This document shows positions 37,335 to 63,463 of a stretch of 64,000 bases of DNA, piece by piece. Made by a program: the position numbers and the translations under genes. Origin of the DNA: Micromonospora cremea (GTDB lineage Bacteria > Actinomycetota > Actinomycetes > Mycobacteriales > Micromonosporaceae); contig NZ_FSQT01000002.1 in assembly GCF_900143515.1 (NCBI RefSeq), positions 931,501 through 995,500 of the forward strand, given 5' to 3'. The notes beneath the pieces were generated by a model. The model ran no database searches and was not told where the DNA came from. It worked only from the letters and a program-made list of their open reading frames with translations. Position 1 is the first letter of the stretch. Each line of letters starts with the position of its first letter.

Positions 37335-37350
37335 CTGAACGATCGCTAAG
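37335..37350. promoter_or_regulatory. Candidate shared operator upstream of icmA
   Basis: CTGAACGATCGCTAAG, a 16-bp pseudo-palindrome 53 bp upstream of the icmA start. It is identical at 14 of 16 positions to the site before the 3-hydroxyacyl-CoA dehydrogenase (53971). Confidence 0.6.
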
Positions 37351-37389
37351 TCACGTCGTACCGGCGGGTAACCTGAGCTGCCCCGACGG

Positions 37390-37854
37390 TCAGGCGGTCG
37401 GCGTCGCCGGCCCGCCCATCGCCACGTCGTCGACCCGGATGTTGACCTCGTCCACCCGCAGCCCGTAGGCCTCGACCGCCTCGGTGACCCGGGCCCGCAC
37501 CTGCCCGGTGATCTCCGGCACCGGCTGGCCGGCCTGAATGACCAGCACCAGGTTGACCACGGCCGCGTCCCCGGTCACGTGCGCCGAGCAGCCCCGCCGG
37601 GCATCGCCCACCTGGTCCAGCCCGACCCGGTCGAGGACCGAGTTGAAGAACCGGGCGACGTCCCCGCCCAGCTCGGCCACCCCGGGGACCGCGCGGGCCG
37701 CCGCGACGGCGATCTTCTCGACCACCTCGTCGGAGACCTGCGTCGTGCCGCCAGCCACCGCCGGCACCGTGGTCAGCTCCCGCGTCGCCTCGTCGCTCAC
37801 GTCCCGCTCCCCGCTCTCATCCACGCTGCCGTCCTCCGGCCGCACGCGAACCAC
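37390..37854 (-). CDS. Asp23/Gls24-family envelope stress protein
   Basis: 154 residues. After a short acidic N-terminus comes the Asp23 domain: VSDEVVEKIAVAAARAVPGV, GDAAVVNLVLVIQAGQPVPE and RARVTEAVEAYGLRVDEVNI. These proteins are linked to cell-envelope homeostasis. The start is uncertain; shorter in-frame starts would remove the acidic leader. It sits between icmA and meaB on the same strand, with a palindrome and G-tract separating it from meaB, so it may be a separate unit. Confidence 0.85.
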   Translation of the reverse strand: MVRVRPEDGSVDESGERDVSDEATRELTTVPAVAGGTTQVSDEVVEKIAVAAARAVPGVAELGGDVARFFNSVLDRVGLDQVGDARRGCSAHVTGDAAVVNLVLVIQAGQPVPEITGQVRARVTEAVEAYGLRVDEVNIRVDDVAMGGPATPTA

Positions 37855-37880
37855 CCCGCGCGTCCGCGAGCCTACTGCCT

Positions 37881-37944
37881 CGTCGATCTAGGGACTATCG
37901 TCGCTTGTGGAGATCAACTCACGACGATGCGCCCTAGATCGACG
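37881..37944. repeat. Two-tier palindrome downstream of meaB
   Basis: Outer arms CGTCGATCTAGGG (37881-37893) and CCCTAGATCGACG (37932-37944) are perfect 13-bp complements. Inner arms ATCGTCG (37897-37903) and CGACGAT (37922-37928) extend the hairpin, leaving an 18-nt loop. It lies between the Asp23 and meaB genes. Confidence 0.8.
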
Positions 37945-37955
37945 GGAGCGGCGGC

Positions 37956-37993
37956 GGGGGGCGGGGGGCCGGGGGCGGGACGGGGCGGGGGGG
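37956..37993 (+). other. G-quadruplex-forming tract abutting the meaB stop
   Basis: G-runs of 6, 6, 5, 3, 4 and 7 with 1-2 nt spacers lie on the plus strand (template for meaB) and touch the TAA stop at 37994-37996. The arrangement is the same as after icmA. Confidence 0.7.
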
Positions 37994-38998
37994 TTAGCGG
38001 GCTAGCTGGGATAGCAGGCGGTTTGCGGCTGCGTAGGGGTCCTGGGCGCCTTCGGCGACCTTGGCGGCCAGCGTCTGCAGCTCGGTGCCGTCGCGTAGGG
38101 AGCCGATGCGGGCGCGGAGCACACCGAGCGCGATGGCCTCGATCTCGGCGGCGGCCCGCGCCTCCTGGCGGCGGCGCAGCTCACCGTGTTCGACCAGCCA
38201 GCCACGATGTTTGTCGATGGCGGCGGCGATGTCGTCGATGCCCTCACCACGCGCCGCGACCGAGCGGACCACCTGCGGTCGCCACTGCCCCGGGCCGCGC
38301 TCACCGAGGGCGATCATGCCCTGGATGTCGCGGACGGTGGCGTCGACGCCGTCGCGGTCGGCCTTGTTGACCACGAACACGTCGGCGATCTCCAGGATGC
38401 CGGCCTTGACCGCCTGGATCGCGTCACCCATGCCGGGGGCGAGCAGCACCAGCGTGGTGTCGGCCAGCGAGGCGACCTCCACCTCGGCCTGCCCGACGCC
38501 GACGGTCTCCACCAGCACCACGTCGCAGCCGGCGCCCTCCAGCACCCGGACCGCCTGCGGTGTCGCCGCGGCCAGCCCGCCGAGGTGCCCGCGGCTGGAC
38601 ATTGACCGGATGTAGACGCCCGGGTCGGTGGCGTGGTCCTGCATCCGCACCCGGTCGCCGAGGATCGCTCCGCCGGTGAACGGGCTGGACGGATCGACCG
38701 CCAGCACGCCGACCCGGTGCCCACGCGCCCGCAGCGCGCGGACCAGCTCGTTGGTGGTGGTCGACTTGCCCACCCCGGGTGAACCCGTCAGCCCCACCAC
38801 CTGGGCCTGCCCGGCGTACGGCGCCAGGGCGGCGGCGATCTCCGGCAGCAGCTCGTCGCCGTTCTCCACCAGCGTGATCAGTCGGGCCACCGCGCGGGGG
38901 TCACCCGCGCGGGCCCGCTCGACCAGCAGCGGTACGTCCCGGCTCCGGCGCACCGACGGTGCGCCGGCCGCCGGAACGTGCTCGACCGCTTCGCTCAC
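37994..38998 (-). CDS. meaB: MeaB/ArgK-type GTPase chaperone of cobalamin mutases
   Basis: A 334-residue G3E GTPase that protects and reloads adenosylcobalamin in acyl-CoA mutases. Walker A is [12 protein letters not shown] (about residue 70), followed by [20 protein letters not shown], the switch region [31 protein letters not shown] and the guanine-specificity motif VVNKAD. A C-terminal dimerisation arm follows. Its ATG overlaps the thiolase stop (ATGA), so the two are coupled. It fits with the mutases IcmA (35594) and Ecm (61432). Confidence 0.95.
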
Positions 38999-40194
38999 TG
39001 GTTGGTCTCAGCCTTTCCCGGAACGTGGATGATCAGGGCGTCCCCCTGGCCGCCGCCGCCGCAGAGCGCCGCCGCGCCGGTGCCGCCGCCGCGCCGCTTC
39101 AACTCCAGCGCGAGGGTGAGCACCAGCCGGGCTCCGGACATGCCGATCGGGTGCCCCAGCGCGATCGCTCCGCCGTTGACGTTGACCTTGTCCGGGCTGA
39201 TGCCCAGGTCACGGGTGGACTGGATGCCGACCTGGGCGAACGCCTCGTTGATCTCGATGAGGTCCAGGTCCTCGACGCTCAGGCCGCCCTTCTTCAGGGC
39301 GTGGTTGATCGCGTTGGACGGCTGCGAGTGCAGGGAGTTGTCCGGGCCCGCCACGTTGCCGTGCGCGCCGATCTCGGCCAGCCAGGTCAGCCCCAGCTCC
39401 TTGGCCTTCGCCATGCTCATCACGACCACCGCGGCGGCGCCGTCGGAGATCGGCGAGGAGCTGCCGGCGGTGATGGTGCCGTCCTTGGTGAACGCGGGAC
39501 GCAGCTTGGCCAGCGACTCGACGGTGGTGTCCGGGCGGATGCCCTCGTCCTCGCTGATCACCAGCGGGTCGCCCTTGCGCTGTGGGATCACCACGGGGGC
39601 GATCTCGTCCGCGAAGTGGCCGTTCTTCTGGGCGGCGGCGGCCCGCTGGTGGCTGGCCGCGGCGAAGGCGTCCTGCTCCTCGCGGGAGATGCCGTGCCTG
39701 GTGCCGAGCCGCTCGGTGGACTCACCCATCGAGCAGCAGTCCCAGGCGTCGCTGAGCCCGTCGTGGGCCATGTGGTCCTTGACCACCACGTCGCCGTACT
39801 TGTAGCCCGAGCGCTGGCCGAGCAGCAGGTGCGGGGCGTTGGTCATCGACTCCATGCCGCCGGCCACCACGATGTCGAACTCGCCGGCCCGGATGAGCTG
39901 GTCGGCCAGGGCGATCGCGTCCAGGCCGGAGAGGCACACCTTGTTGATGGTCAGCGCCGGCACGGACATCGGCACGCCGGCCTCGACCGCCGCCTGCCGG
40001 GCCGGGATCTGGCCGGCGCCGGCCTGCAACACCTGCCCCATGATCACGTACTGGACCTGGTCCGGGCTGACGCCGGCGCGCTCCAGCGCCGCCTTGATCG
40101 CGATCCCGCCGAGCTTCGTGGCCGGGAGGTCCTTGAGGTTGCCCAGCAGCCGCCCCATCGGGGTCCGCGCGCCGCTGACGATCACCGAAGCCAT
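38995..40194 (-). CDS. Acetyl-CoA C-acetyltransferase (thiolase)
   Basis: Condenses two acetyl-CoA to acetoacetyl-CoA, the entry step of the ethylmalonyl-CoA pathway, or works in reverse. The 399-residue protein has the nucleophilic Cys in [20 protein letters not shown], the His in [20 protein letters not shown] and the C-terminal Cys in [33 protein letters not shown] is a standard thiolase N-terminus. It is translationally coupled to meaB and divergent from the epimerase gene, with 62 bp between starts containing a copy of the shared operator motif. Confidence 0.95.
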
Positions 40195-40227
40195 GCCTGC
40201 CTCCGAGGGGGGTGCCGAGCTGTACGC

Positions 40228-40243
40228 CTTAACGATTGTTCGG
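40228..40243. promoter_or_regulatory. Candidate shared operator between thiolase and epimerase genes
   Basis: The minus strand reads CCGAACAATCGTTAAG, matching the icmA site at 13 of 16 positions. It sits in the 62-bp divergent promoter region and could control both directions. Confidence 0.55.
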
Positions 40244-40256
40244 CCAGACTAGCGCC

Positions 40257-40730
40257 ATGGCTGAGAACTCCCCCGCCGAGCCCGGTGCGGACTACGTCAC
40301 AGACATCGGGCTTCGCAAGATTGACCACGTCGGGATCGCCGTGGCCGACCTGGACGCCGCGATCGACTTCTACCAGCGGACGTTCGGGATGCGCTGCGTG
40401 CACATTGAAACCAACGCTGAGCAGGGCGTCCGGGAAGCGATGCTGGCCGTCGGGCCGACCGCCGAGGGCGGCTGCGTGCAGTTGCTCGCCCCGCTCACCC
40501 CGGAGTCGACGATCGCCAAGTTCCTGGACCGCAACGGGCCGGGCGTGCAGCAGGTCGCGTACACCGTGGTGGACATCGACGTGGCCTGCGCCGCGCTGCG
40601 GGCGCGCGGGATGCGGCTGCTCTACGACGCACCGCGGCGCGGCACCGCGGACTCCCGGATCAACTTCGTGCACCCGAAGGACGCCGGCGGCGTCCTGGTC
40701 GAACTGGTCGAACCCGCCGCCACCCACTGA
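40257..40730 (+). CDS. epi: Methylmalonyl-CoA/ethylmalonyl-CoA epimerase
   Basis: Interconverts the 2R and 2S forms of methylmalonyl- or ethylmalonyl-CoA. It is a 157-residue vicinal-oxygen-chelate protein with two modules: IGLRKIDHVGIAVADLDAAI (metal His), a central QLLAPLTPESTIAKFLDRNG, GPGVQQVAYTVVDIDVACAA (a Gln where relatives often have the second metal His; QQ is seen in some), and a terminal GGVLVELVEP Glu. It lies between thiolase (divergent) and ccr (downstream), as expected for the pathway. Confidence 0.93.
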   Translation: MAENSPAEPGADYVTDIGLRKIDHVGIAVADLDAAIDFYQRTFGMRCVHIETNAEQGVREAMLAVGPTAEGGCVQLLAPLTPESTIAKFLDRNGPGVQQVAYTVVDIDVACAALRARGMRLLYDAPRRGTADSRINFVHPKDAGGVLVELVEPAATH

Positions 40731-40760
40731 CCGCCCCGGCACGCCGCTCGCCGGCGGCTC

Positions 40761-40838
40761 TGATCGACACCCGGATCGCCGATGTGGCGGTGTCCAGACG
40801 CCCTGGACACCGCCACATCGGCGAGATGGAGTCGATCA
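40761..40838. repeat. Copy B of the 78-bp dispersed palindrome
   Basis: The best copy. A perfect 22-bp inner stem (40776-40797 with 40803-40824, loop ACGCC) is enclosed by perfect 8-bp ends TGATCGAC/GTCGATCA, with mismatched 6-7 nt between. It is located 31 bp after the epimerase stop. Confidence 0.9.
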
Positions 40839-40946
40839 AGTGTCGGGGCCGAAAAACGGCGCGCGAGCACGTGAGTGCGCGGTTGGCGGGACGGCCGGAC
40901 ACCTTCACGCATCGGCGGATGCAGTTTTTCACAGAGGACTTCCCGG

Positions 40947-40962
40947 CCTAGCTACCGTTCAG
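40947..40962. promoter_or_regulatory. Candidate shared operator upstream of ccr
   Basis: The minus strand reads CTGAACGGTAGCTAGG; on the plus strand it overlaps the palindrome TACCGTTCAGTA. It is 30 bp upstream of the ccr start. The core TACCGTTCAGTAA recurs exactly upstream of ecm. Confidence 0.6.
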
Positions 40963-40991
40963 TAACGTCCCGGCCCACAGGAGCGCGACCG

Positions 40992-42446
40992 GTGCCGGAT
41001 GTGTCGAATGCCGACATGGCGGTCGTGCCCACCGGCGCCGACGATGGCAGCACCCGGGCCCGTGCGGGTGCGGACGAACCGGAGGTCACCGTGCAGGACA
41101 TCCTCGAAGCGATCATGGCGGCGGAGGAATCGAGCGATCCGGACCGCGAGCTCGCCGGCGTCGCCGGGCTGCCCGTTCCGGAGAGCTATCGGGGCGTGGT
41201 CGTCCGCGCCGTAGAGGCCCGGATGTTCGACGGCATGGCCACCCGGGACAAGGACCCCCGCAAGGCGCTGCACGTGCAGGAGGTGCCGACGCCGGAGCTC
41301 GGACCGGGCGAGGCGCTGGTCGCGGTGATGGCCAGCGCGATCAACTACAACACGGTGTGGACCAGCATCTTCGAGCCGGTGTCCACCTTCAAGTTCCTCC
41401 AGCGCTACGGCCGGGTCTCCGAGCTGACCCGCCGGCACGACCTGCCGTACCACGTGGTCGGCTCGGACGCGGCCGGCGTGGTGCTGCGCACCGGCCCCGG
41501 GGTGACCCGGTGGGCCGCCGGCGACGAGGTGGTCGCGCACTGCCTCTCCGTCGAGCTGGAGGACGCGGCCGGGCACGACGACACCATGCTCGACCCGCAG
41601 CAGCGGATCTGGGGCTTCGAGACCAACTTCGGCGGGCTGGCCGAGCTGGCCGTGGTCAAGGCCAATCAGCTGATGCCCAAGCCCCGGCACCTGACCTGGG
41701 AGGAGGCGGCCAGCCCGGGGCTGGTGAACTCCACCGCGTACCGGCAGCTCGTCTCGCACCACGGGGCCAACATGAAGCAGGGCGACGTGGTGCTGATCTG
41801 GGGCGCCTCCGGCGGCCTCGGCGGGTACGCCACCCAGATGGCGCTGAACGGCGGGGCGATCCCGGTCTGCGTCGTCTCCTCGCCGGAGAAGGCCGAGCTG
41901 TGCCGCCGGATGGGCGCGGAGCTGGTCATCGACCGGGCGGCGGAGGGCTTCCGGTTCTGGAAGGACGAGGAGACCCAGGACCCGGACGAGTGGAAGCGCC
42001 TGGGTGAGCGGATCCGCGAGCTGACCGGGGGCGAGGACCCGGACATCGTCTTCGAGCACCCGGGCCGGGAGACCTTCGGCGCGAGCGTCTACGTGGCCCG
42101 GCGCGGCGGCACCATCGTCACCTGCGCCTCCACCAGCGGCTTCCAGCACCAGTACGACAACCGCTACCTGTGGATGCACCTCAAGCGGATCGTCGGCAGC
42201 CACTTCGCGAACTACCACGAGGCCTGGCAGGCCAACCGCCTGGTCGCGCTCGGCAAGGTGCACCCCACGGTGTCCCGCACCTACGCCCTGGAGCAGACCG
42301 GGCAGGCGGCGTATGAGGTGCACCGCAACGCTCATCAGGGCAAGGTCGGCGTGCGCTGCCTTGCCCCCACGGACGGACTGGGCGTGCGCGACGGGGAGCT
42401 GCGGGCCAGGCACGAGGACGCGATCAACCGGTTCCGGGGGCACTGA
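40992..42446 (+). CDS. ccr: Crotonyl-CoA carboxylase/reductase
   Basis: NADPH-dependent reductive carboxylation of crotonyl-CoA to (2S)-ethylmalonyl-CoA. The 484-residue protein is a medium-chain reductase with the CO2-binding residues of true Ccr enzymes: Asn in ASAINYNTVWTSIFEPV, Phe-Glu in WGFETNFGGLAELAV, and His in RIVGSHFANYHEAWQANRL. The NADPH-binding loop is LIWGASGGLGGYATQM. The GTG at 40992 has AGGAG eight bases upstream. The product supplies ethylmalonyl-CoA to Ecm (61432) or to polyketide synthesis. It is a single-gene unit ended by a strong terminator. Confidence 0.95.
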   Translation: MPDVSNADMAVVPTGADDGSTRARAGADEPEVTVQDILEAIMAAEESSDPDRELAGVAGLPVPESYRGVVVRAVEARMFDGMATRDKDPRKALHVQEVPTPELGPGEALVAVMASAINYNTVWTSIFEPVSTFKFLQRYGRVSELTRRHDLPYHVVGSDAAGVVLRTGPGVTRWAAGDEVVAHCLSVELEDAAGHDDTMLDPQQRIWGFETNFGGLAELAVVKANQLMPKPRHLTWEEAASPGLVNSTAYRQLVSHHGANMKQGDVVLIWGASGGLGGYATQMALNGGAIPVCVVSSPEKAELCRRMGAELVIDRAAEGFRFWKDEETQDPDEWKRLGERIRELTGGEDPDIVFEHPGRETFGASVYVARRGGTIVTCASTSGFQHQYDNRYLWMHLKRIVGSHFANYHEAWQANRLVALGKVHPTVSRTYALEQTGQAAYEVHRNAHQGKVGVRCLAPTDGLGVRDGELRARHEDAINRFRGH

Positions 42447-46423: not shown

Positions 46424-46448
46424 CTGCATGCCGGAGCCGGGCGTCAGA

Positions 46449-50574: not shown

Positions 50575-51618
50575 TCACCAGGTCGCGGGCCGGTCCAGGT
50601 GCTTGGCGACCTGCGCCCCGCCGAGCACGGTGGTCGCGTCGTCCTCGGTGAACCCCTCGTTCGGCCGGCCCCAATCGGCGGTGAGACGGGCCTGCGGTAT
50701 GCCCAGTAGCTCCATCTTCCCGCCCTGCGGGTGGCGGTAGGCCGGCCGACCGGCCACCGTCGCGTTGGGTTTCGTGCCCTCACCAGCGGTGTTGCGGGCG
50801 TACTGGAGCCGCACCTCCATCGAGCGAAACCCGCTCCCGTCGACGATCAGCGAGACGTCCAGCGTGGCCGGGAAGTTGGTCACGGTGACCTCACAGCCGG
50901 CCGGCCACGCCCCGGCCGGCAACGCGGTCAGCCGCACCGGGGCGCTGCACCGGTGCGCCACATCCAGCCGGAGGGCGCTCCTCGCCGCCTGCAGCGCCGC
51001 GTCGGTGGGCGCCACCGTGCGCAGGCGGGCGAAGAGGCCGGGCACCGGCTGCCACCGCAGCACCCAGATCGGAACGGCGCCTCCCATGGAGAACCGATCC
51101 ATTTGGCCGTCGTAGGGCGGGTCCGCCGGTTGCGGGATGTACCTGGCCCCCTCCAGGTGAACCTCCTCGGCCACGGCTGCGCTGCGGGCGAGGTAGAAAC
51201 TGACCGGCGCGGAGCCACCCAGATCCAGCTGGGCGCTCTCCAGGCCGGCCGCCGATCGCCAGCTCAGGTAGCGAGCGTGGGCCGGGTCGAAGCCGAAATG
51301 CAGCAGACCGGGGTCCTTTCCGACCAGATCAGGTCGGGCGAGTGCGCCCGGCACCCCGGCCGCCAGCGCCGGCGTGGCCGCCTGGGTTGCCGGTTTCGCC
51401 CCTGTCCAGGGCATCTCCACGGGCAGCCCACCGCCGCCCGCCACCCCGAGGCCGAGCACCGCCGCCACGCCGAGCGCCGTCCCGCCCACTGCGGCCCGTC
51501 GCCGCGCGCGCCGGGCCCGGCCCCGGGCAACCGCCCCGCTGGTCAGCTGGCCGATGTCGACCTGGCCCTCAGCGTGCTCCCGCAGGGTTGAGATGATCCG
51601 CTGGTCGAGGTCTGTCAC
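50575..51618 (-). CDS. Single-pass membrane protein, putative partner of the ECF sigma factor
   Basis: 347 residues. A short cytoplasmic region (DLDQRIISTLREHAEGQVDI), a basic stretch RGRARRARRRAA, one membrane helix (VGGTALGVAAVLGLGVAGGG) and a large extracytoplasmic domain of unknown fold. The GTG start overlaps the sigma-factor stop (GTGA), the typical layout for an anti-sigma factor. No zinc-binding anti-sigma motif is visible, so the role is inferred from context. Confidence 0.75.
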   Translation of the reverse strand: MTDLDQRIISTLREHAEGQVDIGQLTSGAVARGRARRARRRAAVGGTALGVAAVLGLGVAGGGGLPVEMPWTGAKPATQAATPALAAGVPGALARPDLVGKDPGLLHFGFDPAHARYLSWRSAAGLESAQLDLGGSAPVSFYLARSAAVAEEVHLEGARYIPQPADPPYDGQMDRFSMGGAVPIWVLRWQPVPGLFARLRTVAPTDAALQAARSALRLDVAHRCSAPVRLTALPAGAWPAGCEVTVTNFPATLDVSLIVDGSGFRSMEVRLQYARNTAGEGTKPNATVAGRPAYRHPQGGKMELLGIPQARLTADWGRPNEGFTEDDATTVLGGAQVAKHLDRPATW

Positions 51619-52109
51619 GGTCGGCTCCCGTTGGCGGTCGGGGCACCGCAGCGCTCCCGGAGGTTGGCGAGCGCCCGCATCGCGTGCGTGCGGACGGTGA
51701 CCGGCGAGCAGTCCAGGATCTGCGCGATGGTCGCGTCGTCGAGGTCCTCGTAGTAGCGCAGCACGAGCACCGCCCGCTGGCGGTCGGGCAGGTCGAGGAC
51801 CAGGCGCCACATCTCGTCCCGGTCGGCCGCCTCGCCACCGAGGTCGCCGCGGTGCGGCCGGTCGGCAAAGTTGTCGGTGGCCAGTTCCCGGTTCGACCGG
51901 CGGCGCCACCAGGAGATGTTGGCGTTGACCAGCATCCGGCGCACGTACACGTCGGGCCGGTCGGCCCGGGCGATCTTGCGCCACTGCACGTACGCCCGGG
52001 CCAGCACCTCCTGCGTGAGGTCCTCGGCCCGGTGCTCGTCACCGGTCAGTAGTCGAGCAAGTCGGACCAGGGCCGGACCTCGGCTGCCGACGTACTCCTC
52101 GAAGGTCAC
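51615..52109 (-). CDS. SigE-family ECF RNA polymerase sigma factor
   Basis: 164 residues. Region 2 (LVRLARLLTGDEHRAEDLTQ, VLARAYVQWRKI, DVYVRRMLVNANISWWRRRS) and region 4 (LPDRQRAVLVLRYYEDLDDA, TIAQILDCSPVTVRTHAMRA) are complete. It belongs to the small SigE-like ECF group common in actinomycetes. GTG start; overlaps its membrane partner downstream. Probably responds to an envelope signal through that partner. Confidence 0.92.
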   Translation of the reverse strand: MTFEEYVGSRGPALVRLARLLTGDEHRAEDLTQEVLARAYVQWRKIARADRPDVYVRRMLVNANISWWRRRSNRELATDNFADRPHRGDLGGEAADRDEMWRLVLDLPDRQRAVLVLRYYEDLDDATIAQILDCSPVTVRTHAMRALANLRERCGAPTANGSRP

Positions 52110-52148: not shown

Positions 52149-53939
52149 TCAGCGGTGCGAGTGGTCGCGGAAGCCCCGGCGGGTCTTGCGGCCCAGGTAG
52201 CCGGCGGTGACCAGGTGCTCCAACAGCGGGGCCGGAGCGAAGCCGGGCTCGCGCAGCTCCAGGTACAGCTCCCGCTGGATGGCCAGTGAGACGTCCAGCC
52301 CGACCACGTCGAGCAGCTCGAACGGGCCCATCGGGTAGCCGCAGCCCAGCTTCATCGCGTGGTCGATGTCGTCGGCCGTGGAGTAGCTGGCCTCCAGCAT
52401 CTTCACCGCGTCGTTGAGGTACGGGAAGAGCAGCGCGTTGACGATGAACCCGGACCGGTCTCCGCACACCACGCCGGTCTTGCCCAGCGCGGCGCAGACC
52501 GCCCGGGCGGTCGCGGTGGTCTCCGGGGAGGTGCGGATGGTGCGGACCACCTCGACCAGCGGCATGATCGGCGCCGGGTTGAAGAAGTGCAGCCCCACCA
52601 CGTCGGCGGGCCGGTGGGTGGCCATCGCCACGTCGATCACCGGCAGCGAGGAGGTGGTGGTCGCCAGCACCACGCCCGGCTTGCAGATCTCGTCGAGGCT
52701 GGCGAAGAGCGCCTTCTTCACGCTCAACTCCTCGACGACCGCCTCGACCACCAGGTCGACGTCGGCGAGGTGGTCGAGCGTGGCGGACCAGCTGATCCGG
52801 CCCAGCGCGGCGTCCCGGTCGGCCTCGGCGAGCTTGCCGCGCACCACGCCCTTGTTCAGCGAGGTCTTCACCGCCTCGCAGACCTTCGCGGACTTCTCCG
52901 CGCCCCGGGTCACCGAGATGACCTCGTAGCCGGCCTTCGCGAACACCTCGATGATCCCGGTGGCCATCGTCCCGGAGCCCACCACGCCCACCTTGGCGAG
53001 CGCGCGCGCGCCGTCGGCGAGCGCGGCCTCCGTGGCCAGCGGCGTCGCCTCGTCGGGTACGACCACCGGCGAGCCGGGCCGCTCGTAGGTGTAGAAGCCC
53101 CGGCCGGACTTCCGGCCCAGCAGCCCCGCGGTCACCATCTGCTTGAGCAGCGGCACCGGGGCGTGCCGGCGGTCCCGCCCGCCGCGCCGGTACATGGTGT
53201 CCAGAATCTCGTACGCGGTGTCCAGGCCGATCAGGTCCATCAGCGCCAGCGGACCCATCGGCAGGCCGCAACCGAGCTTCATCGCGGCGTCGATGTCCTC
53301 CCGGGTCGCGTAGTGCGACTCGAACATGCCGACCGCGTGGTTGAGGTAGCCGAAGAGGAGCGCGTTCGCGATGAAGCCGGCCCGGTCGTTGATGGTGACG
53401 TCGACCTTGCCGAGCCGGGCGCAGAGCGCTTCGACGTCGGCGACCACCGCGGGCGCGGTGACCACGGTGCGGACCACCTCGACCAGCTTCATCACCGGCG
53501 CCGGGTTGAAGAAGTGGATGCCGATCACCTGGTTGGGCCGCGTGGTGGCCACCGAAATCTCGGTGACGCTCAGCGACGAGGTGTTGGTGGCCAGGATGGT
53601 CTCCGGCCGGCAGACCCGGTCCAGCTCCGCGAAGATCCGCTGCTTGAGGTCAAGGTGCTCGGGCACCGCCTCGATGACCAGGTCGACGGAGTGCAGCGCG
53701 TCCAGCCCGACCGCGAAGTGCACCCGGTCGAGCAGCGCGTCCCGGTCCTCCGGGGCGAGCTTGCCCTTGGCCACCGCCCGGTCGGTGGAGCCGGTGAGGG
53801 TGACCCGGCCACGCTCCAGCGCCGGCTCGGAGATCTCGACCGCCACCACGTCGATGCCGTTGCGGGCGAAGACCTCGACGATGCCGGCACCCATGGTGCC
53901 CAGCCCCACCACACCCACGGTGCTGAACTCGCGCGCCAC
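52149..53939 (-). CDS. Tandem-fused 3-hydroxyacyl-CoA (3-hydroxybutyryl-CoA) dehydrogenase
   Basis: 596 residues made of two complete copies of the dehydrogenase. Copy 1 starts VGVVGLGTMGAGIVEVFARN (NAD-binding) and has EAVPEHLDLK, ATNTSSLSVT, the catalytic HFFNPAPVMKLVEVVRT and the C-terminal GFIANALLFGYLNHAV. Copy 2 repeats these from about residue 315: VGVVGSGTMATGIIEVFAKA, EAVVEELSVK, ATTTSSLPVI, HFFNPAPIMPLVEVVRT. Both catalytic His are kept. It would reduce acetoacetyl-CoA between thiolase and Ccr in the ethylmalonyl-CoA pathway. The shared operator motif lies 32 bp upstream. Confidence 0.93.
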   Translation of the reverse strand: MAREFSTVGVVGLGTMGAGIVEVFARNGIDVVAVEISEPALERGRVTLTGSTDRAVAKGKLAPEDRDALLDRVHFAVGLDALHSVDLVIEAVPEHLDLKQRIFAELDRVCRPETILATNTSSLSVTEISVATTRPNQVIGIHFFNPAPVMKLVEVVRTVVTAPAVVADVEALCARLGKVDVTINDRAGFIANALLFGYLNHAVGMFESHYATREDIDAAMKLGCGLPMGPLALMDLIGLDTAYEILDTMYRRGGRDRRHAPVPLLKQMVTAGLLGRKSGRGFYTYERPGSPVVVPDEATPLATEAALADGARALAKVGVVGSGTMATGIIEVFAKAGYEVISVTRGAEKSAKVCEAVKTSLNKGVVRGKLAEADRDAALGRISWSATLDHLADVDLVVEAVVEELSVKKALFASLDEICKPGVVLATTTSSLPVIDVAMATHRPADVVGLHFFNPAPIMPLVEVVRTIRTSPETTATARAVCAALGKTGVVCGDRSGFIVNALLFPYLNDAVKMLEASYSTADDIDHAMKLGCGYPMGPFELLDVVGLDVSLAIQRELYLELREPGFAPAPLLEHLVTAGYLGRKTRRGFRDHSHR

Positions 53940-53970: not shown

Positions 53971-53986
53971 CTGAACGGCCGCTAAG
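53971..53986. promoter_or_regulatory. Candidate shared operator upstream of the 3-hydroxyacyl-CoA dehydrogenase
   Basis: CTGAACGGCCGCTAAG, differing at two central positions from the icmA site, 32 bp before the start codon. Confidence 0.6.
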
Positions 53987-55661: not shown

Positions 55662-55915
55662 GGACAGTCAGCCCTCCACCCCACACCACTACTCCGCGCG
55701 TCAGCCTGCCATCAGACGGTAATCGTCAGTACCGACCAGCCGGTCAGCTCCTCGCCACCTCCCGGCCATCTCCCGTTCCACGGTTCGGGCGGTCGAGATC
55801 CGACGCAGAGGCCCTGCCTGCTCTGATCAACGAGCCGACGACCCGGTGCGACTCCCGTATCGCCGGGCCGAATCGCGCCCTACCGACGAGTAATCTTCGG
55901 GTCTAGACTTCCGCC

Positions 55916-57412
55916 ATGACGGCTGTGCATGTCCCCGGCAACCCGGTCATCGAGGCGGGCGAACTGGTTTCCACCAGTCCAGCCACCGGCGTCGAGGCCG
56001 GTCGCCTCCCGGTCGCCACCGACGCCGACGTCCGGCGGGCCGTCGACCGCGCCCGCACCGCCAACGAATGGTGGGCCGGGCTGGGCTTCACCGGCCGTCG
56101 CGAACGGCTGCTGCGCTGGCGCGCCCTGCTCGCGAAGCGGATCGAGCAGCTCGCCGAGCTGGTGCACGTCGAGGGTGGCAAGCCGGTCGCCGACGCCATC
56201 GTCGAGATCGTCACCGCGATCGAGCACATCGACTGGGCCGCCCGCAACGCCAACCGCGTGCTCGGCCCGCGTCGGGTGCGGTCCCGGCTCATCCTCGCCG
56301 AGTTCTCCGGGCACCTCGAATACCAGCCGTACGGCGTGGTGGGCGTGATCGGGCCGTGGAACTATCCGGTCTTCACCCCGATCGGTTCCGCCGCGTACGC
56401 GCTGGCCGCCGGCAACGCCGTCGTGCTCAAGCCGAGCGAGTACACGCCCGTGGTCGGTCAGTGGCTGGTGGACAGCTTCGCCGAGGTCGTACCCGAGCAA
56501 CCCGTCTTCACCGCCGTGCACGGGCTGGGCGAGGTGGGCGCGGCGCTGTGCCGTTCAGGGGTGAACAAACTCGCCTTCACCGGCTCCACCGCCACCGCCC
56601 GCAAGGTCATGGCCGCCTGCGCCGAGACGTTGACCCCGGTGCTGATCGAGGGCGGCGGCAAGGACGCCATGATCGTCGACAGTGATGCCGACCTGGACGC
56701 CGCCGCCGAGGCGTGCGTCTGGGGCGGCATGACCAACGCTGGCCAGACCTGCATCGGCATCGAGCGGGTGTACGCCGTCGACCAGGTCTTCGACACCTTC
56801 GTCGACAAGGTGGTGGCCCGCGCGGGCCGGCTGACCGTCGGGCCCGAGGGCACCGACATCGGCCCGATCACCATGCCCGGCCAGGTCGACGTGATCCGCC
56901 GCCACATCGAGGCCGCGGTCAGCTCCGGCGGGCGCGCCGTGCTCGGCGGACCGAGCGCGGTGCAGCCGCCGTACGTGCATCCGACCGTGCTGGTGGACGT
57001 GCCGGAGGAGTCGGCCGCCGTCCGCGAGGAGACCTTCGGGCCGACGCTCACCATCAGCCGGGTCCGCGACGCCGACGAGGCCCTCGCCCGGGCCAACGCG
57101 CTGCCGTACGGCCTGGGCGGTTCGGTCTTCGGCCGGCGGCGTGCGGTCGCCATCGCCCGACGGCTGCGCTCCGGGATGGCTTCGGTCAACTCCACCCTCA
57201 CCTTCGCCGGGATGTCCACCCTGCCGTTCGGCGGGGTCGGTGACTCCGGCTTCGGGCGGATCCACGGCGAGGACGGGCTGCGCGAGTTCGGCCGGGCCAA
57301 GGCGATCACCCGCCGGCGGGCCCGTTCGCTGCTGCCGTCCATGACCTTCGAGCGGACACCGACCGACGTGGCCCGACTCGTCAAGGTCATCAAGACGATG
57401 TACGGCAGGTGA
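55916..57412 (+). CDS. NAD(P)-dependent aldehyde dehydrogenase
   Basis: 498 residues. The Rossmann region has VGVIGPWNYPVFTPIGSAAY and VLKPSEYTP. The general-base Glu is in TPVLIEGGGKDAMIV and the catalytic Cys in TNAGQTCIGIERVYAV. EETFGPTLTISRV and STLPFGGVGDSGFGRIHGED are usual family blocks. It resembles class-3/succinate-semialdehyde-type enzymes, but the substrate cannot be read from the sequence. Single gene; downstream is a decayed methyltransferase. Confidence 0.93.
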   Translation: MTAVHVPGNPVIEAGELVSTSPATGVEAGRLPVATDADVRRAVDRARTANEWWAGLGFTGRRERLLRWRALLAKRIEQLAELVHVEGGKPVADAIVEIVTAIEHIDWAARNANRVLGPRRVRSRLILAEFSGHLEYQPYGVVGVIGPWNYPVFTPIGSAAYALAAGNAVVLKPSEYTPVVGQWLVDSFAEVVPEQPVFTAVHGLGEVGAALCRSGVNKLAFTGSTATARKVMAACAETLTPVLIEGGGKDAMIVDSDADLDAAAEACVWGGMTNAGQTCIGIERVYAVDQVFDTFVDKVVARAGRLTVGPEGTDIGPITMPGQVDVIRRHIEAAVSSGGRAVLGGPSAVQPPYVHPTVLVDVPEESAAVREETFGPTLTISRVRDADEALARANALPYGLGGSVFGRRRAVAIARRLRSGMASVNSTLTFAGMSTLPFGGVGDSGFGRIHGEDGLREFGRAKAITRRRARSLLPSMTFERTPTDVARLVKVIKTMYGR

Positions 57413-57786: not shown

Positions 57787-57791
57787 GCCGG

Positions 57792-58451: not shown

Positions 58452-58522
58452 CCGACGAGGGTAGCCGAGCACCCACCGGTCGCCAGCGAGCGGCACTGGC
58501 GCGTCGATGGGATGCTGAGACG

Positions 58523-59140: not shown

Positions 59141-59183
59141 CGAGACCGCCTGGCCGTGGCGGTTCCCGCCAGATCCAGACATG

Positions 59184-59223
59184 CCGCTGGCCGGCACCCC
59201 AGGGTTGGGGTGCCGGCCAGCGG
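59184..59223. terminator. Bidirectional hairpin terminator
   Basis: A perfect 17-bp GC stem (59184-59200 with 59207-59223) with a 6-nt AGGGTT loop lies between the convergent stops at 59140 and 59261. Confidence 0.8.
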
Positions 59224-59260
59224 TCGATGTCACGCGGTCATGCGGGTGGTGCTTGGGGTG

Positions 59261-59815
59261 TCACTTGTTCCAGTGCTGGGCGACCAGGTCGGTGGCCTGC
59301 TGCTCCCACTGGGCGTAGGCATCGGGGTAGGCCGAGACCTGCACGGTCTGCGCGGCGTCGGTCAACGCCATGTCCTGCCACCCGTCAACCTGCTTGAGAC
59401 CCTTGAGGAACGCGGTCGTCGAGTAGGCGGGGTCGGTGATCTGCTCCGGCGTACCCCAACCCGAGCTGGGGCGCTGCTGGAACAGGCCCAGCGAGTCGTG
59501 GTCGTTCTTGTCGCCGAGGTGACCCAGGTTCTCCAGCTTCGACTCCTGCAGGCTGGTGGCGATCGAGATGACCGCGGCCCGCTCAGGCAGATCGGCCTTC
59601 TTCGTCGCGGCGATGATCGCCTTGACGTTCGCAATCTGCTCGTCGTTGAGGTCGATGTGCGACTGCGCGCCCTGCGCCTTGACCGTCTGCACCGCCACGG
59701 CGGCGGGCTTGCCGTCGACGGGGGCGGCGTGGGCGGCGATCGGGCCGGCGAAGACACCACCGGCGAACGCGAGACCAGCAACGGACAGCATGCTCTTACG
59801 AATGATCGTGTTCAT
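59261..59815 (-). CDS. Secreted lytic-transglycosylase-like protein
   Basis: 184 residues. Signal peptide (SMLSVAGLAFAGGVFAGPIA, cleavage near AHA-A), then an Ala/Val-rich spacer and an SLT/lysozyme-like domain: ANVKAIIAATKKADLPERAA, VISIATSLQESKLENLGHLG (Glu in the position of the catalytic acid), NDHDSLGLFQQRPSSGWGTP and TTAFLKGLKQVDGWQDMALT. Probably trims peptidoglycan during growth or resuscitation. SD AAGGAG before ATG 59815. A strong hairpin sits in its leader. Confidence 0.82.
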   Translation of the reverse strand: MNTIIRKSMLSVAGLAFAGGVFAGPIAAHAAPVDGKPAAVAVQTVKAQGAQSHIDLNDEQIANVKAIIAATKKADLPERAAVISIATSLQESKLENLGHLGDKNDHDSLGLFQQRPSSGWGTPEQITDPAYSTTAFLKGLKQVDGWQDMALTDAAQTVQVSAYPDAYAQWEQQATDLVAQHWNK

Positions 59816-59841
59816 GGGGGTGAGCTCCTTCAGGGGGTAGA

Positions 59842-59878
59842 CACCCACCGCCCAGTTCGGGGGAACGGCGTGTGGGTG
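59842..59878 (-). promoter_or_regulatory. Leader hairpin upstream of the transglycosylase-like gene
   Basis: CACCCAC, CGCC and GTTC on the plus strand (59842-59858) pair with GAAC, GGCG and GTGGGTG (59863-59878), interrupted by a 2-nt and a 1-nt bulge. This gives a nearly continuous 15-bp stem. It ends about a dozen bases upstream of the SD, so it could act as an attenuator or other RNA control element. No known riboswitch motif was recognised. Confidence 0.5.
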
Positions 59879-59954
59879 CAAGCACCTCGTCCGGCGCTTT
59901 CAACACGGGGGAAAGTCTTTCGGCGGCCTACGGGCGGGGGCCTCGTGGCGCCGG

Positions 59955-60180
59955 GACCGTGTGTAACGACCGGCGGGCCGGGGTCATTCCGGGGCTGGCC
60001 CATCCGTCGACACCCGGTAGATCAGGTGCTGGTGCGGTCGTTCAGGGAGTCTGCAACGACCGCGCACCCGCGGGCATTCCAACCCGCCTGGCTGCCATCC
60101 CAACCCCGAGGCGGGGTGGCGGGCCGGTGGTGCTGCGATCGTCAGGGTGTGTAACGACCCCGGGCCGGCCACGATTCCAG
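59955..60180. repeat. Degenerate 90-98-bp tandem repeats
   Basis: Three related units begin with AACGAC at 59965, 60055 and 60153. Each is preceded by a TGTGT/TCTGC-like stretch and followed about 20-25 bp later by ATTCC. The units end in related GGTGCTG...GATCGTCAGGG sequences. Inverted GGTCGTT/AACGACC pairs link adjacent units. Confidence 0.5.
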
Positions 60181-60339
60181 CCCACGGGTGCGGCCGGTCA
60201 CAGGCCAGACACCCCCGATACCGGACATCCGGCACGAGATCGGCGAGCCGTTTCCATCAGGCCGTCCGCCCGAGGGCTCGGCTCGATCCGGAGGGGCTGT
60301 CCAATCGGCTGCCCGGCATCGGATGGGCCTGTTGGGGGT

Positions 60340-60417
60340 TGATCGACTCGATATCGCCGATGTCGGGGTATCCGGTGGCCGTGGATACCGCAATATCGGC
60401 GAGGTCGAAGTCGATCA
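60340..60417. repeat. Copy C of the 78-bp dispersed palindrome
   Basis: Starts TGATCGACTCGATATCGCCG and ends GTCGATCA, exactly 78 bp like copy B. The core GATGTCGGGGTATCC is close to copy A. The right arm has mismatches (GATACCGCAATATCGGCGA). Confidence 0.8.
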
Positions 60418-60614
60418 TCCCGGGCGAAGGCGATCCGGGGGCGAGGTGGCCAGCGAGCGGTATACCTCAGAGGCATATGTATGACTCACAGGTATACCGC
60501 TCACAACACCGACCGCTCCCCCGGATCGCCCGCTGGTCCGCGTCGGAGAGACGGTGGCCTGGCCGCATCCACCGCCAGGGCCAGGCCGGGGCCGCCAGCC
60601 AGATGCGCCCTAAT

Positions 60615-60975
60615 CCCGGCGCCGGGATCAGAGCCCACGACGACCCCGACGGAAGGCGACACATCGCACCTGGCAAGGGAATCCGGGGCGGACAGCGATC
60701 GCCGACGGTATGGGACTGACCGCACGTTGCGCAGGGATTGGTGCGGGACAACGACCGCCGGCCAAAACGGGACCAACCCGCGCCCTGGCGCAGGGAGCAG
60801 AGCCGATGGCGATCGCCGCCGGGGTCGGGGCTTGCCCGACCCGCGCAGGAATCGGACCGGACCGAACAACCCGCCGGGATGGGACGTGCCGGACCCCGGG
60901 TTCCGAACGGACGGCGACCACCGGCGGGGTGGGGCCCGCCGTGCCCGGCGCAGGGATCAAGCCTGACCGCCCGGA
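60615..60975. repeat. Degenerate tandem repeats of about 57 bp
   Basis: Units anchored on GCGCAGGGATC-like sequence recur at about 60624, 60677, 60734, 60793, 60848 and 60953. The 60848-60953 gap spans two units, one of which has lost the anchor. Each is followed by GGAC-x-x-CGA(C/T)CGCCGG-like sequence. Identity between units is moderate, but the spacing of 50-59 bp is regular. Confidence 0.5.
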
Positions 60976-60997
60976 GCCGGGCACGGCGGGCCCCACC
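60928..60997. terminator. Perfect 22-bp-stem hairpin
   Basis: Arms 60928-60949 and 60976-60997 are perfect complements with a 26-nt loop. It closes the repeat block 119 bp before the DUF1540 gene. It may be a terminator or part of the repeat structure. Confidence 0.55.
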
Positions 60998-61116
60998 ACG
61001 CCCCACACGGACCCGGCAAGCCGGTCAACGAGCCGGCGCAAACCAGCTCACGGGATAGCCAGGGTCACGAAGCCGGCAAAAGCCTACGATCGGGCAAGAG
61101 CCTAGAGGAGGTCGGC

Positions 61117-61413
61117 ATGACCGCAGCGATGGAGATGCCCCGAGTCCAGGAGTGCGTTGTCGTAGCTTGCGCCTACAACGACGCCGGCGACTGCCACGCC
61201 TTCGCGATCACGATCGGCAGCATGGATCACGCGCACTGCCACACCTTCGTTGAGTCGCCGGTACGCGGCGGCGTGGAGAGCCTGATCGCCCAGGTGGGCG
61301 CCTGCCAGCGGTCCGACTGCCGGCACAATGAGCAGCTCGAGTGCCACGCGTCGTCCATCAGGGTCGGCCCGGACAACGACATGGCCGACTGCATGACCTA
61401 CGACGGCCGCTGA
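61117..61413 (+). CDS. Double DUF1540 cysteine-rich protein
   Basis: 98 residues with two DUF1540 modules. The first is VVACAYNDAGDCHAFAITIG with a following HAHCHTF; the second is GACQRSDCRHNEQLECHASS with a following MADCMTY. Each supplies four Cys in the C-x(3-5)-C-x(6)-C pattern plus a later Cys, suggesting metal binding. GAGGAGG before the ATG is a strong SD. Function unknown. Convergent with ecm. Confidence 0.85.
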   Translation: MTAAMEMPRVQECVVVACAYNDAGDCHAFAITIGSMDHAHCHTFVESPVRGGVESLIAQVGACQRSDCRHNEQLECHASSIRVGPDNDMADCMTYDGR

Positions 61414-61431
61414 CCTGCCACACCCGCCCGG

Positions 61432-63438
61432 TCAGGGCAGGTCGTTGGCGCGGCGGATGACCGTCACCAGGTCGTCGATGATGCCGGTGAGGGCGAAGTC
61501 CTTCGGGGTGAAGACCCGGGCCACCCCGGCCGCCCGCAGCGTGTCGGCGTCAGCGGCGGGGATGATGCCTCCCACGACCACCGGCAGGTCCGCCCGGCCG
61601 GCGGCGCGCAGCCCGTCGAGCACGGCCGGCACGGCTGCCAGGTGCGAACCGGAGAGCACGGACAGCCCGACCAGGTCGACGTCCTCCTCTACGGCCGCGG
61701 CGACGATCTGCCCGGCGGTCAGCCGGATGCCCTGGTAGACGACCTCGAAGCCGGCGTCGCGGGCGCGTACCGCGATCTGCTCGGCGCCATTGGAGTGCCC
61801 GTCCAGGCCGGGCTTGCCGACCAGCAGTCGCAGCCGGCCGCTGCCCAGCTCGCGGGCGGTGGCGGTGACCCGCTCGCGGACGGCCGCGAGGCCCGGGTCG
61901 CCGCCGGTGCCGGTGGCCCCGGCCAGCCCGGTGGGCGCCCGGTACTCGCCGAAGACCTGGCGCAGCGCACCGGCCCACTCGCCGGTGGTCACACCGGCCC
62001 GCACGCACTCCAGGGTGGCCGGCATCAGGTTCGTGGTGGACGCGGCGTCCGCGCGGAGCCGGGCCAGGGCCGCGTCGACGGCCGCGCCGTCCCGGTCGGC
62101 CCGCCACCGGCGTACGCCGTCCACGGCTGCGGCCTCGACCGCCGGATCGACCTGCTCGACCGCCTCCGCTCCGGCCGCGGTAAGCGGGGAGGGCTCGGTC
62201 TCGGTGAACCGATTGACGCCGACCACCACGTCGGCGCCGGACTCCATCCGGCTGCGGCGCTCGGCCAGCGAGGCGACCAGCGCGCTCTTGAGGTAGCCGG
62301 TCTCCACGGCGGTTACCACGCCGCCCAGCTCCAGCACCTTGTCCAGCTCGGCTCGGGCACCGGTGACGATCTCGTCGACCAGCGCGGTCATCACGTGCGA
62401 GCCGGCGAAGAGGTCGGGGTGTTCGAGCAGATCCGACTCGTACGCCAGAACCTGCTGCATCCGCAGCGACCACTGCTGGTCCCAAGGGCGGGGCAGGCCG
62501 AGCGCCTCGTTCCAGGCGGGCAGCTGCACCGCGCGAGCCCGGGCGTCGCGGGACAGCGTCACGCCGAGCATCTCCAGCACGATTCGCTGGATGTTGTTTT
62601 CCGGCTGCGCTTCGGTCAGGCCGAGCGAGTTGACCTGCACGCCATAGCGGAACCGGCGCTGCCTGGCCTCGGTGACTCCGTACCGGTCGCGGGTGATCTC
62701 ATCCCAGAGCACGCCGAACGCGCGCATCTTCCCGATCTCCTCCACGAACCGCACCCCGGCGTTGACGAAGAACGAGATCCGCTGCACCACGTCACCCATC
62801 CGCTCGGCGGGCACCTGGCCGGAGTCGCGCACCGCGTCGAGCACGGCGACCGCGGTGGCCAGCGCGAAACCGACCTCCTGCACCGGCGTGGCACCGGCTT
62901 CCTGGAGGTGGTACGAGCAGATGTTGACCGGGTTCCACCGCGGCATCTCGCGCAGCGTGTACGCCACCACGTCGGCGGTGAGCCGCAGCGACGCCGCCGG
63001 CGGGAAGATGTACGTCCCCCGGGACAGGTACTCCTTGATGATGTCGTTCTGCGTGGTGCCGGCGCAGCGGGCCAGCTCGGCATTCTGCTCCAGCCCCACG
63101 GTGCCGTAGAGGGCGAGCAGCCACATCGTCGGCGCGTTGATGGTCATCGAGGTGTTCATGTCGGCCAGCGGGAGGCCGTCGAAGAGCGCCCGCATGTCGC
63201 CCAGGTGGGCCACCGGCACGCCGACCCGGCCGACCTCGCCGGCGGCCAGCTCGTGGTCGGGGTCGTACCCGGTCTGGGTGGGCAGGTCGAAGGCGACCGA
63301 GAGACCGGTCTGCCCCTTCGCCAGGTTGCGGCGGAAGAGGGCGTTGGTCGCGGCGGCCGACGAGTGGCCGGCGTAGGTGCGCATCACCCACGGACGGTCC
63401 CGCTCGGGCAACCGCCCCGAAGATGCCTTCTCATCCAT
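61432..63438 (-). CDS. ecm: Ethylmalonyl-CoA mutase (MeaA/Ecm type)
   Basis: Adenosylcobalamin-dependent conversion of (2R)-ethylmalonyl-CoA to methylsuccinyl-CoA. The single chain of 668 residues carries both the TIM-barrel domain (WVMRTYAGHSSAAATNALFR, GLSVAFDLPTQTGYDPDHEL, KEYLSRGTYIFPPAASLRLT, CSYHLQEAGATPVQEVGFAL) and a C-terminal cobalamin domain with the DxHxxG motif in LLVGKPGLDGHSNGAEQIAV. The intact Tyr/Arg pair differs from IcmA. Length and layout match MeaA rather than methylmalonyl-CoA mutase. Its operator-like site lies 10 bp upstream. It is 19 kb from ccr, unlike the adjacent arrangement in many streptomycetes. Confidence 0.92.
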   Translation of the reverse strand: MDEKASSGRLPERDRPWVMRTYAGHSSAAATNALFRRNLAKGQTGLSVAFDLPTQTGYDPDHELAAGEVGRVGVPVAHLGDMRALFDGLPLADMNTSMTINAPTMWLLALYGTVGLEQNAELARCAGTTQNDIIKEYLSRGTYIFPPAASLRLTADVVAYTLREMPRWNPVNICSYHLQEAGATPVQEVGFALATAVAVLDAVRDSGQVPAERMGDVVQRISFFVNAGVRFVEEIGKMRAFGVLWDEITRDRYGVTEARQRRFRYGVQVNSLGLTEAQPENNIQRIVLEMLGVTLSRDARARAVQLPAWNEALGLPRPWDQQWSLRMQQVLAYESDLLEHPDLFAGSHVMTALVDEIVTGARAELDKVLELGGVVTAVETGYLKSALVASLAERRSRMESGADVVVGVNRFTETEPSPLTAAGAEAVEQVDPAVEAAAVDGVRRWRADRDGAAVDAALARLRADAASTTNLMPATLECVRAGVTTGEWAGALRQVFGEYRAPTGLAGATGTGGDPGLAAVRERVTATARELGSGRLRLLVGKPGLDGHSNGAEQIAVRARDAGFEVVYQGIRLTAGQIVAAAVEEDVDLVGLSVLSGSHLAAVPAVLDGLRAAGRADLPVVVGGIIPAADADTLRAAGVARVFTPKDFALTGIIDDLVTVIRRANDLP

Positions 63439-63447
63439 GGCCGGAGT

Positions 63448-63463
63448 CTAAGTTACCGTTCAG
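63448..63463. promoter_or_regulatory. Candidate shared operator upstream of ecm
   Basis: The minus strand reads CTGAACGGTAACTTAG, starting 10 bp before the ATG. The overlapping TTACCGTTCAGTAA (63453-63466) is itself palindromic at its ends and shares TACCGTTCAGTAA with the ccr site. Confidence 0.6.

Follow-up and report, generated by a model that had tools for sequence, protein, structure and literature searches.

Two conserved palindromic operators, probably read by two repressors, at ethylmalonyl- and butyryl-CoA genes of Micromonospora cremea

Acyl-CoA genes and the palindromes in front of them

The stretch of DNA analysed here (64,000 nucleotides; G000:C2:931501-995500, hereafter the window) comes from the 7.76-Mb, two-contig genome of M. 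cremea and carries genes of ethylmalonyl- and butyryl-coenzyme A (CoA) metabolism, among them ccr, whose product is 98% identical to that of Micromonospora acroterricola, the nearest protein among the matches listed. A sequence-only reading had placed one 16-bp palindrome, controlled by one regulator, in front of five transcription units of the window. We find a real and conserved regulatory feature that had been wrongly unified: there are two operators, type A (consensus CTGAACGATCGTTCAG) at the thiolase and epimerase genes, icmA and hbd, and type B (consensus GTTACYSRYSRGTAAC) at ccr, ecm, icmA and an aldehyde dehydrogenase gene, and they are probably read by two repressors. The genes and operators are as follows, with operators given without strand and scored on the profile of their own type.

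35594..37282, minus strand: icmA-type isobutyryl/methylmalonyl-CoA mutase large subunit (PF01642, 1.5e-203; TIGR00641 above cutoff)
37335..37350: type A operator of icmA, 52 bp from its start (19.8 bits, rank 2 in the window)
37357..37372: type B operator of icmA, upstream of its type A site (14.2 bits, rank 5)
37390..37854, minus strand: Asp23-family protein, 3' of meaB in the thiolase unit (PF03780)
37994..38998, minus strand: meaB, mutase-associated GTPase (TIGR00750 above cutoff)
38995..40194, minus strand: acetyl-CoA acetyltransferase (thiolase, thl; TIGR01930 above cutoff)
40228..40243: type A operator between the thiolase-meaB-asp23 unit and the divergent epimerase unit, 33 and 13 bp from their starts (21.2 bits, rank 1)
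40257..40730, plus strand: methylmalonyl-CoA epimerase (TIGR03081 above cutoff)
40951..40966: type B operator of ccr, GCTACCGTTCAGTAAC (21.3 bits, rank 1), replacing the earlier 40947-40962
41091..42446, plus strand: ccr, crotonyl-CoA carboxylase/reductase (TIGR01751 above cutoff; open frame from 40875, scanned from 40992)
52149..53939, minus strand: hbd, 3-hydroxybutyryl-CoA dehydrogenase, two tandem copies (two 3HCDH_N and two 3HCDH stretches)
53971..53986: type A operator of hbd, 31 bp from its start (15.7 bits, rank 3 in the window)
55879..55894: type B operator of the aldehyde dehydrogenase gene, 21 bp upstream of it (18.7 bits, rank 2), unreported by the earlier reading
55916..57412, plus strand: aldehyde dehydrogenase (PF00171)
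61432..63438, minus strand: ecm-type acyl-CoA mutase with B12 domain, substrate predicted (PF01642 and PF02310)
63452..63467: type B operator of the ecm-type mutase gene, 13 bp from its start (18.6 bits), replacing the earlier 63448-63463

All five 16-mers of the sequence-only reading lie exactly where it had put them. A consensus of the kind it used, allowing up to three mismatches, has six matches in the 64 kb (the five and one at 35843), compared with a mean of 1.63 in shuffled windows, and none of 100 shuffles reaches six; as a group, the five exceed chance. They do not share one motif, however. The ccr and ecm sites belong to type B and had been read 4 bp out of register: on the B profile the earlier frames score −4.4 and −7.7 bits, respectively, and the shifted frames 21.3 and 18.6 bits. 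The earlier register at these two genes is ruled out, as the profile trained on ccr promoters places the sites 4 bp away; on the A profile, the earlier frames rank only 6th and 8th (10.3 and 9.4 bits). Conversely, the thiolase/epimerase, icmA and hbd sites score −7.6, 0.5 and 0.0 bits on the B profile.

Both profiles were learned outside the genus. The A profile derives only from the promoters of a TetR gene (R_A, described below) in 27 other Micromonosporaceae genera. The B profile comes from an unsupervised palindrome search of 34 ccr upstream regions outside Micromonospora and Streptomyces; upstream regions had been inspected for 45 of 80 related loci, and training left out Micromonospora/Salinispora, 20 Streptomyces loci and locus L091, with L088 dropped for its late alignment start. 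The search returned GTTACCGGCCGGTAAC (GTTACYSRYSRGTAAC), and 33 of the 34 training loci, from several orders, reach at least 14 bits (L075 being the miss). In the window, five places reach 14 bits on the B profile (ccr, 55879, ecm, 52038 and the icmA type B site), compared with 0.14 on average and at most 2 in null sequences; the best score of a null sequence stays within 15.0 bits in 95% of cases and never exceeds 19.2 bits. For the A profile, the best score in 200 random sequences averages 13.9 bits (95% point, 17.1; maximum, 21.4), so measured the hbd, ccr and ecm sites are not individually significant.

Further sites exist where the sequence-only reading had noticed none: it overlooked the type B sites at 37357 and 55879, and others precede acyl-CoA genes elsewhere in the genome. 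The site at 40228, which it gave to a thiolase/epimerase unit, sits between two divergent units and can serve both. Its statement that every site lies 10 to 55 bp from a start codon is doubtful for ccr: for 62 of the 80 ccr homologues the alignment begins no earlier than residue 20 of the frame scanned from 40992, and a GTG at 41091, behind GGAGG, would be the likelier start, 124 bp from the type B site.

The type-B-like match at 52038-52053 (14.9 bits) falls within the 5' end of a sigma-70-like gene (51615-52109, minus strand) and is probably due to chance, and places 4 and 5 of the A scan (23016 and 48161) have no adjoining acyl-CoA gene and were treated as chance. As for the genes themselves, hbd is a fusion of two copies encoding one 596-amino-acid protein; a separate single-copy hbd lies just outside the window (L109:1532-2380) and has a weaker A-like site of its own. 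The nearest model to the aldehyde dehydrogenase is that of succinic semialdehyde dehydrogenase (NF006916, 373.7 bits, below the cutoff of 521).

Conservation and genome-wide distribution

Conservation was judged at a threshold of 12 bits, which random 160-bp segments reach in 1.6% (A) and 1.3% (B) of cases. Palindromic operators in front of these genes, as the sequence-only reading had proposed, are indeed found in most orthologous promoters: A or B reaches the threshold in 21/21 icmA, 24/27 thl, 28/29 ccr, 12/17 hbd and 8/12 ecm promoters. Many members of the icmA, thiolase and ccr sets are closely related, and the window's own genome is counted among those for hbd and ecm. Type A is present in all 21 Micromonosporaceae icmA promoters, 15 of which also have B, and in the same 24 of 27 at thl. 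At hbd, type A occurs in 10 of 17 promoters, B in two (L201 and L205, in place of A) and neither in five. Type B occurs in 28 of 29 ccr promoters (five of these loci were in the B training set) and in 8 of 12 ecm promoters; four of the latter have A as well, and four have neither. Three of these ecm misses (L182, L187 and L188) show no recognisable site, and the fourth, L180, has GTTACTGAACGTTCAC, just under the threshold for both types (A, 11.1; B, 10.9).

Beyond its training set, type B was found at 24 of 24 Micromonosporaceae ccr loci, mostly close relatives, and at 11 of 14 family ccr genes. Several results weigh against the two-regulon reading proposed below. Of the three family genes that fall short (L319, L323 and L324), L323 and L324 share only 69% and 63% identity, respectively, with the query; 7 of the 29 ccr loci carry a type A site of at least 12 bits; and none of the 20 Streptomyces ccr loci, scored after training, has B. 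In view of the Streptomyces result, type B at ccr is claimed for several orders only. For the same reason, the valine response of S. albus, in the excerpted text of PMC8176718, has no bearing on type B.

Far from matching thousands of random positions, the type B core TTACYGNNCRGTAA occurs exactly at two places in 7.76 Mb, in front of ecm and of a gene with two B sites that is fadE5-like by eye (no NCBIfam match at 1e-60); up to one mismatch gives 19 places, versus 5 for a reversed control. Type B sites of the genome also precede genes for an EtfD-like electron-transfer membrane protein and a short-chain dehydrogenase/reductase-type reductase (both by eye). The type A core, with up to three mismatches, has 37 places against 6 in the control. 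When 64 places from two complete pattern lists were scored on the A profile, 8 of the best 23 were at acyl-CoA genes. The profile is only moderately selective genome-wide, another point that counts against the interpretation offered below.

Of 43 A- or B-like places chosen for inspection, nine lie beside acyl-CoA enzyme genes or R_A: accD, R_A, a second hbd, biotin carboxylase, carboxylase beta, the fadE5-like gene, icmB, and mesaconyl-CoA hydratase-like and malyl-CoA lyase-like genes. One more adjoins pyruvate phosphate dikinase, one lies about 100 bp before aceE (by eye), and the other 32 have nothing related nameable by eye beside them. The sites at the dikinase, lyase, hydratase, icmB, biotin carboxylase, carboxylase beta and second hbd genes are candidates from this genome; conservation is a stronger argument than a single-genome scan. 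The predicted regulon is genome-wide rather than confined to 28 kb, as the sequence-only reading had it, and the genes of the regulators proposed below lie about 1.2 to 1.3 Mb from the window. In a place of its own (L118:4167-4260), two type-B-like sites with one mismatch each stand 64 bp apart before a gene.

Candidate readers of the two operators

The locus of R_A was reached by pattern searches of the genome and inspection of the 43 chosen places. R_A is a TetR gene at G000:C2:2168614, outside the window, beside accA (biotin carboxylase), hmgL (hydroxymethylglutaryl-CoA lyase) and accD (carboxyltransferase). Its product has an N-terminal TetR-type DNA-binding domain (PF00440, 2.4e-17) and is present in 29 of 31 family genomes (E ≤ 1e-30). 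In 20 stretches of the family (7 to 13 kb, one ended by a contig edge), R_A is accompanied by accA in 20, hmgL in 19 and accD in 16. An unsupervised palindrome search of the R_A promoters of the 27 other genera returned CTGAACGATCGTTCAG with a score of 245.5, against 52 to 66 in six shuffled sets; 15 of the 27 promoters reach at least 18 bits, and all 16 accD promoters found in the 20 stretches have type A. A similar search in other orders, with 18 of 28 loci (the best match per genome), gave GTTAACGATCGTTAAC, reached at 21 bits or more by 18 of 18 training promoters, some of which have GTTAGC or GTTAGT halves. Computation thus links type A to the R_A locus.

This locus and operator resemble those of known regulators, for which the comparisons below draw on excerpts of the papers cited. 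AccR of Streptomyces avermitilis is a TetR regulator with the motif GTTAA-N6-TTAAC and the named targets accD1A1-hmgL-fadE4, echA8, echA9 and fadE2 (PMC10933834); methylcrotonyl-, propionyl- and acetyl-CoA are named as its ligands (PMC8546615). Like AccR, which controls short-chain acyl-CoA genes, R_A sits beside accA, hmgL and accD, and the promoters of four Streptomyces orthologues of R_A read GTTAATGANCGTTAAC, all four fitting the AccR motif. Unlike it, the Micromonosporaceae operator has drifted to CTGAACGATCGTTCAG, and the predicted targets include icmA, epimerase, thiolase and hbd. BkaR of Mycobacterium smegmatis, a TetR protein encoded beside accD1 and accA1, binds as a dimer and represses; it shifts a similar site before the thiolase gene fadA4 (MSMEG_4920), and fadA4 is up 4.9-fold in the mutant (PMC3920632). 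As predicted for R_A and type A, it acts through a 16-bp palindrome, GTTA(N)T(N4)A(N)TAAC, on a carboxylase operon (accD1-accA1) and a thiolase gene, although the half-site is TTANT rather than TGAAC/TTAAC, and 10 genes are reported to be under its direct control in M. smegmatis. Mycobacterial PccD is reported to have 68% homology to BkaR and 45% to AccR (PMC11596240). R_A matches the SACE_7040 family model (NF050111) at 223.6 bits, under its curated cutoff of 250, and the PccD site reported for Saccharopolyspora is unlike A or B. None of the best 120 matches of R_A is named AccR or BkaR, all having general TetR names. By locus and operator, R_A is therefore placed in the AccR/BkaR group as a predicted member, and type A is best explained by binding of this predicted regulator.

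Within the window's own genome the assignment would have been hard to make, and here the evidence runs against it in several ways. The R_A promoter scores only 9.9 bits for A and 14.7 bits for B, and it lacks the GTTAA-N6-TTAAC-type palindrome, CTGAACGATCGTTCAG-like sites being present in the same 15 of 27 Micromonosporaceae. Among the 77 further TetR promoters of the genome, at least 8 outscore it on A (the top one at 18.8 bits), so that this genome alone would not have pointed to R_A. Further, 12 of the 27 R_A promoters have no strong A site. The 18.8-bit promoter belongs to a TetR gene at C2:1046486, where two perfect tandem CTGACCGATCGGTCAG palindromes stand in front (L288:2389-2423) and a transporter gene, MmpL-like by eye, follows; its product is a possible cross-reader of A, though not the preferred one.

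For type B, the promoters of the TetR genes of the genome (78 matches, with 150 of 271 candidates scored; R_A and 77 others) were scanned on the B profile. Besides that of R_A, only one exceeds 8 bits, at 13.3: the promoter of R_B, a TetR gene at C2:2291903 beside acyl-CoA dehydrogenase and fadD-like genes, whose nearest solved structure is the TetR-like regulator 3f1b. In 20 family genomes, 18 R_B promoters reach 12 bits for B and none does for A, and they mostly have paired sites of the form TTACTSNNGCGTAAC and CTTACGCNCGAGTAGG; of 29 R_A promoters, 15 reach 12 bits for A and 4 for B. A profile built from R_B promoters ranks the aldehyde dehydrogenase, ecm, icmA and ccr type B sites 1st, 4th, 5th and 6th in the window, and of nine orthologues from other orders that share roughly 50% identity or more with R_B, six have B in their promoters. 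The neighbours of R_B suggest a function similar to that of FdmR (Rv0238), a long-chain acyl-CoA-responsive repressor of fatty acid degradation genes (PMC12403877), a likeness of descriptions and a lead only.

The case for R_B is offset by several observations. Its profile gives the window sites low scores, from 12.0 bits (aldehyde dehydrogenase) down to 6.6 (ecm) and 6.1 (ccr), its own operators differ from the ccr site in having a TTACGC half, and of the remaining orthologues one (L328) has B at 10.2 bits and two from Amycolatopsis are without B. R_B has no match at E ≤ 1e-50 in G007 and G026 (99 of 136 and 99 of 173 candidates scored), where the ccr B site has 25.2 bits. Four Geodermatophilales genomes and a Frankia genome with B at ccr, for which every candidate was scored, likewise have no match at E ≤ 1e-30. 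R_B is therefore unlikely to be the general reader of B; as the best candidate in the window's genome, we give it close to even odds.

Other candidates for type B were considered and set aside. GlnR, whose motif we take to be GTNAC-N6-GAAAC, is less fitting, in that the six central bases of B show mirrored preferences, which suit a dimer on a palindrome better; the B search enforced symmetry, and the mirrored preferences are nonetheless legible from the listed sites. TetR genes near ccr in other orders were also set aside: those of Pseudonocardiales are only about 31 to 35% like R_A over 50 residues, and their start regions score low for both A and B. In the Pseudonocardiales loci L057, L079 and L106, a second palindrome, TTGATTGGCCGGCCGGTCAA, and a TetR gene occur upstream of ccr.

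Two overlapping regulons and the alternatives

Taken together, we propose that short-chain acyl-CoA metabolism is governed by two overlapping regulons of TetR-type repressors, in which R_A reads A but does not read B (a rough probability of 0.72), and hence probably two repressors sensing acyl-CoA rather than one shared switch. Because BkaR is reported to be a dimeric repressor and acyl-CoAs are named as AccR ligands, we infer that a dimer of R_A would occupy the A operators at or beside the promoters while its ligand is scarce; at 52, 33/13 and 31 bp from the starts, it could cover or crowd the promoter. As short-chain acyl-CoAs rise, R_A would leave, and thiolase/meaB, epimerase, icmA and hbd would be expressed with the carboxylase operon. 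A second regulator on type B, putatively R_B in this species, would gate ccr, ecm and the aldehyde dehydrogenase gene, and icmA, with both operators, would answer both signals.

The suggestion that a TetR-type regulator is involved is thus supported for the type A sites, whereas that of a single regulator is not, as ccr and ecm carry a different palindrome. A single R_A could still read A and B as one degenerate motif, TTA[A/C]CGRYCG[T/G]TAA, which we consider unlikely. The two types do align in the same register, and some sites fit both profiles, namely the ecm site GTTAACGATCGGTAAC of L183 and L185 (A, 20.4; B, 19.1) and the site 35 bp upstream of the icmB-type small B12 subunit gene of the window's genome (L126:3615-4070, with sucC and sucD downstream by eye), which mixes both halves (A, 18.2; B, 7.1). 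Such sites would also be explicable by one degenerate reader, as would the replacement of A by B in the two hbd promoters, the type A sites at seven ccr loci and the B-like site of the R_A promoter, and we count the blurred sites as evidence against two strictly separate readers, for they would allow cross-reading, or control of R_A by whatever protein reads B. The strongest sites of each type, however, score low on the profile of the other, A is absent from the 20 R_B promoters, and Geodermatophilales have a GTTAAC-type palindrome at R_A but a TTAC[C/T]-type one at ccr. Type B is kept at ccr in four genomes without an R_A match at E ≤ 1e-25 (L059, 25.0 bits; L070, 14.3; L074, 14.5; L081, 15.1; 134 of 158 candidates were scored for L059 and 134 of 147 for L070).

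A stronger competitor leaves A with R_A and assigns B to a third regulator widespread in actinobacteria, the R_B operator being a look-alike; this is plausible, at somewhat below even odds. It would account for the persistence of B at ccr where R_B has no match, and for B sites before the fadE5-like (two sites), EtfD-like and reductase genes, as expected of a general fatty-acid regulator; against it, only the R_A and R_B promoters exceed 8 bits for B in the scan described above, which covered the TetR family only. It is very improbable that the five 16-mers came together by chance and have no function. Admittedly, 34 of the 43 inspected places have no adjoining acyl-CoA enzyme gene or R_A, and hbd, ccr and ecm singly fall below the 95% null point of the A profile, but profiles trained on other genomes place the sites among the high-scoring positions of the window, and orthologous promoters retain them; on these two grounds chance was rejected.

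The AccR-type half of the two-regulon proposal would be a new member of a known regulon with added ethylmalonyl-CoA-linked targets; if true, icmA, epimerase and hbd would join the carboxylase and thiolase genes in the AccR/BkaR regulon. Type B at ccr is the less expected part. Among the matches listed in a literature search on ccr or the ethylmalonyl-CoA pathway with TetR, no title concerned such regulation in actinobacteria, and none of six type B 14-mers occurs in the searchable literature, most subscription journals lying outside the coverage of both searches. We tentatively suggest that in several actinobacterial orders, the Streptomyces examined excepted, ccr stands under its own operator GTTACYSRYSRGTAAC and a fatty-acid-type repressor and the neighbouring butyryl/propionyl-CoA steps under an AccR-type one. 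Genes with both operators (icmA and, in some genera, ecm) would then act as gates with two inputs, one from fatty-acid supply and one from short-chain acyl-CoA supply. Ccr and the acyl-CoA mutases determine how much ethylmalonyl- and methylmalonyl-CoA, building blocks of polyketide antibiotics, is available. The two-operator map makes this precursor supply directly testable and tunable.

Two loci elsewhere in the genome touch on the possible reach of the type A regulon. A loose cluster at L148:6177-16701 holds malyl-CoA lyase-like, acyl-CoA dehydrogenase-like and mesaconyl-CoA hydratase-like genes, two of them with A-like sites, and is possibly the rest of the ethylmalonyl-CoA pathway. At L110:4070-4085, the A-like site CTTAACGAAGGTTCAG abuts the predicted start of the pyruvate phosphate dikinase gene and may tie the regulon to gluconeogenesis.

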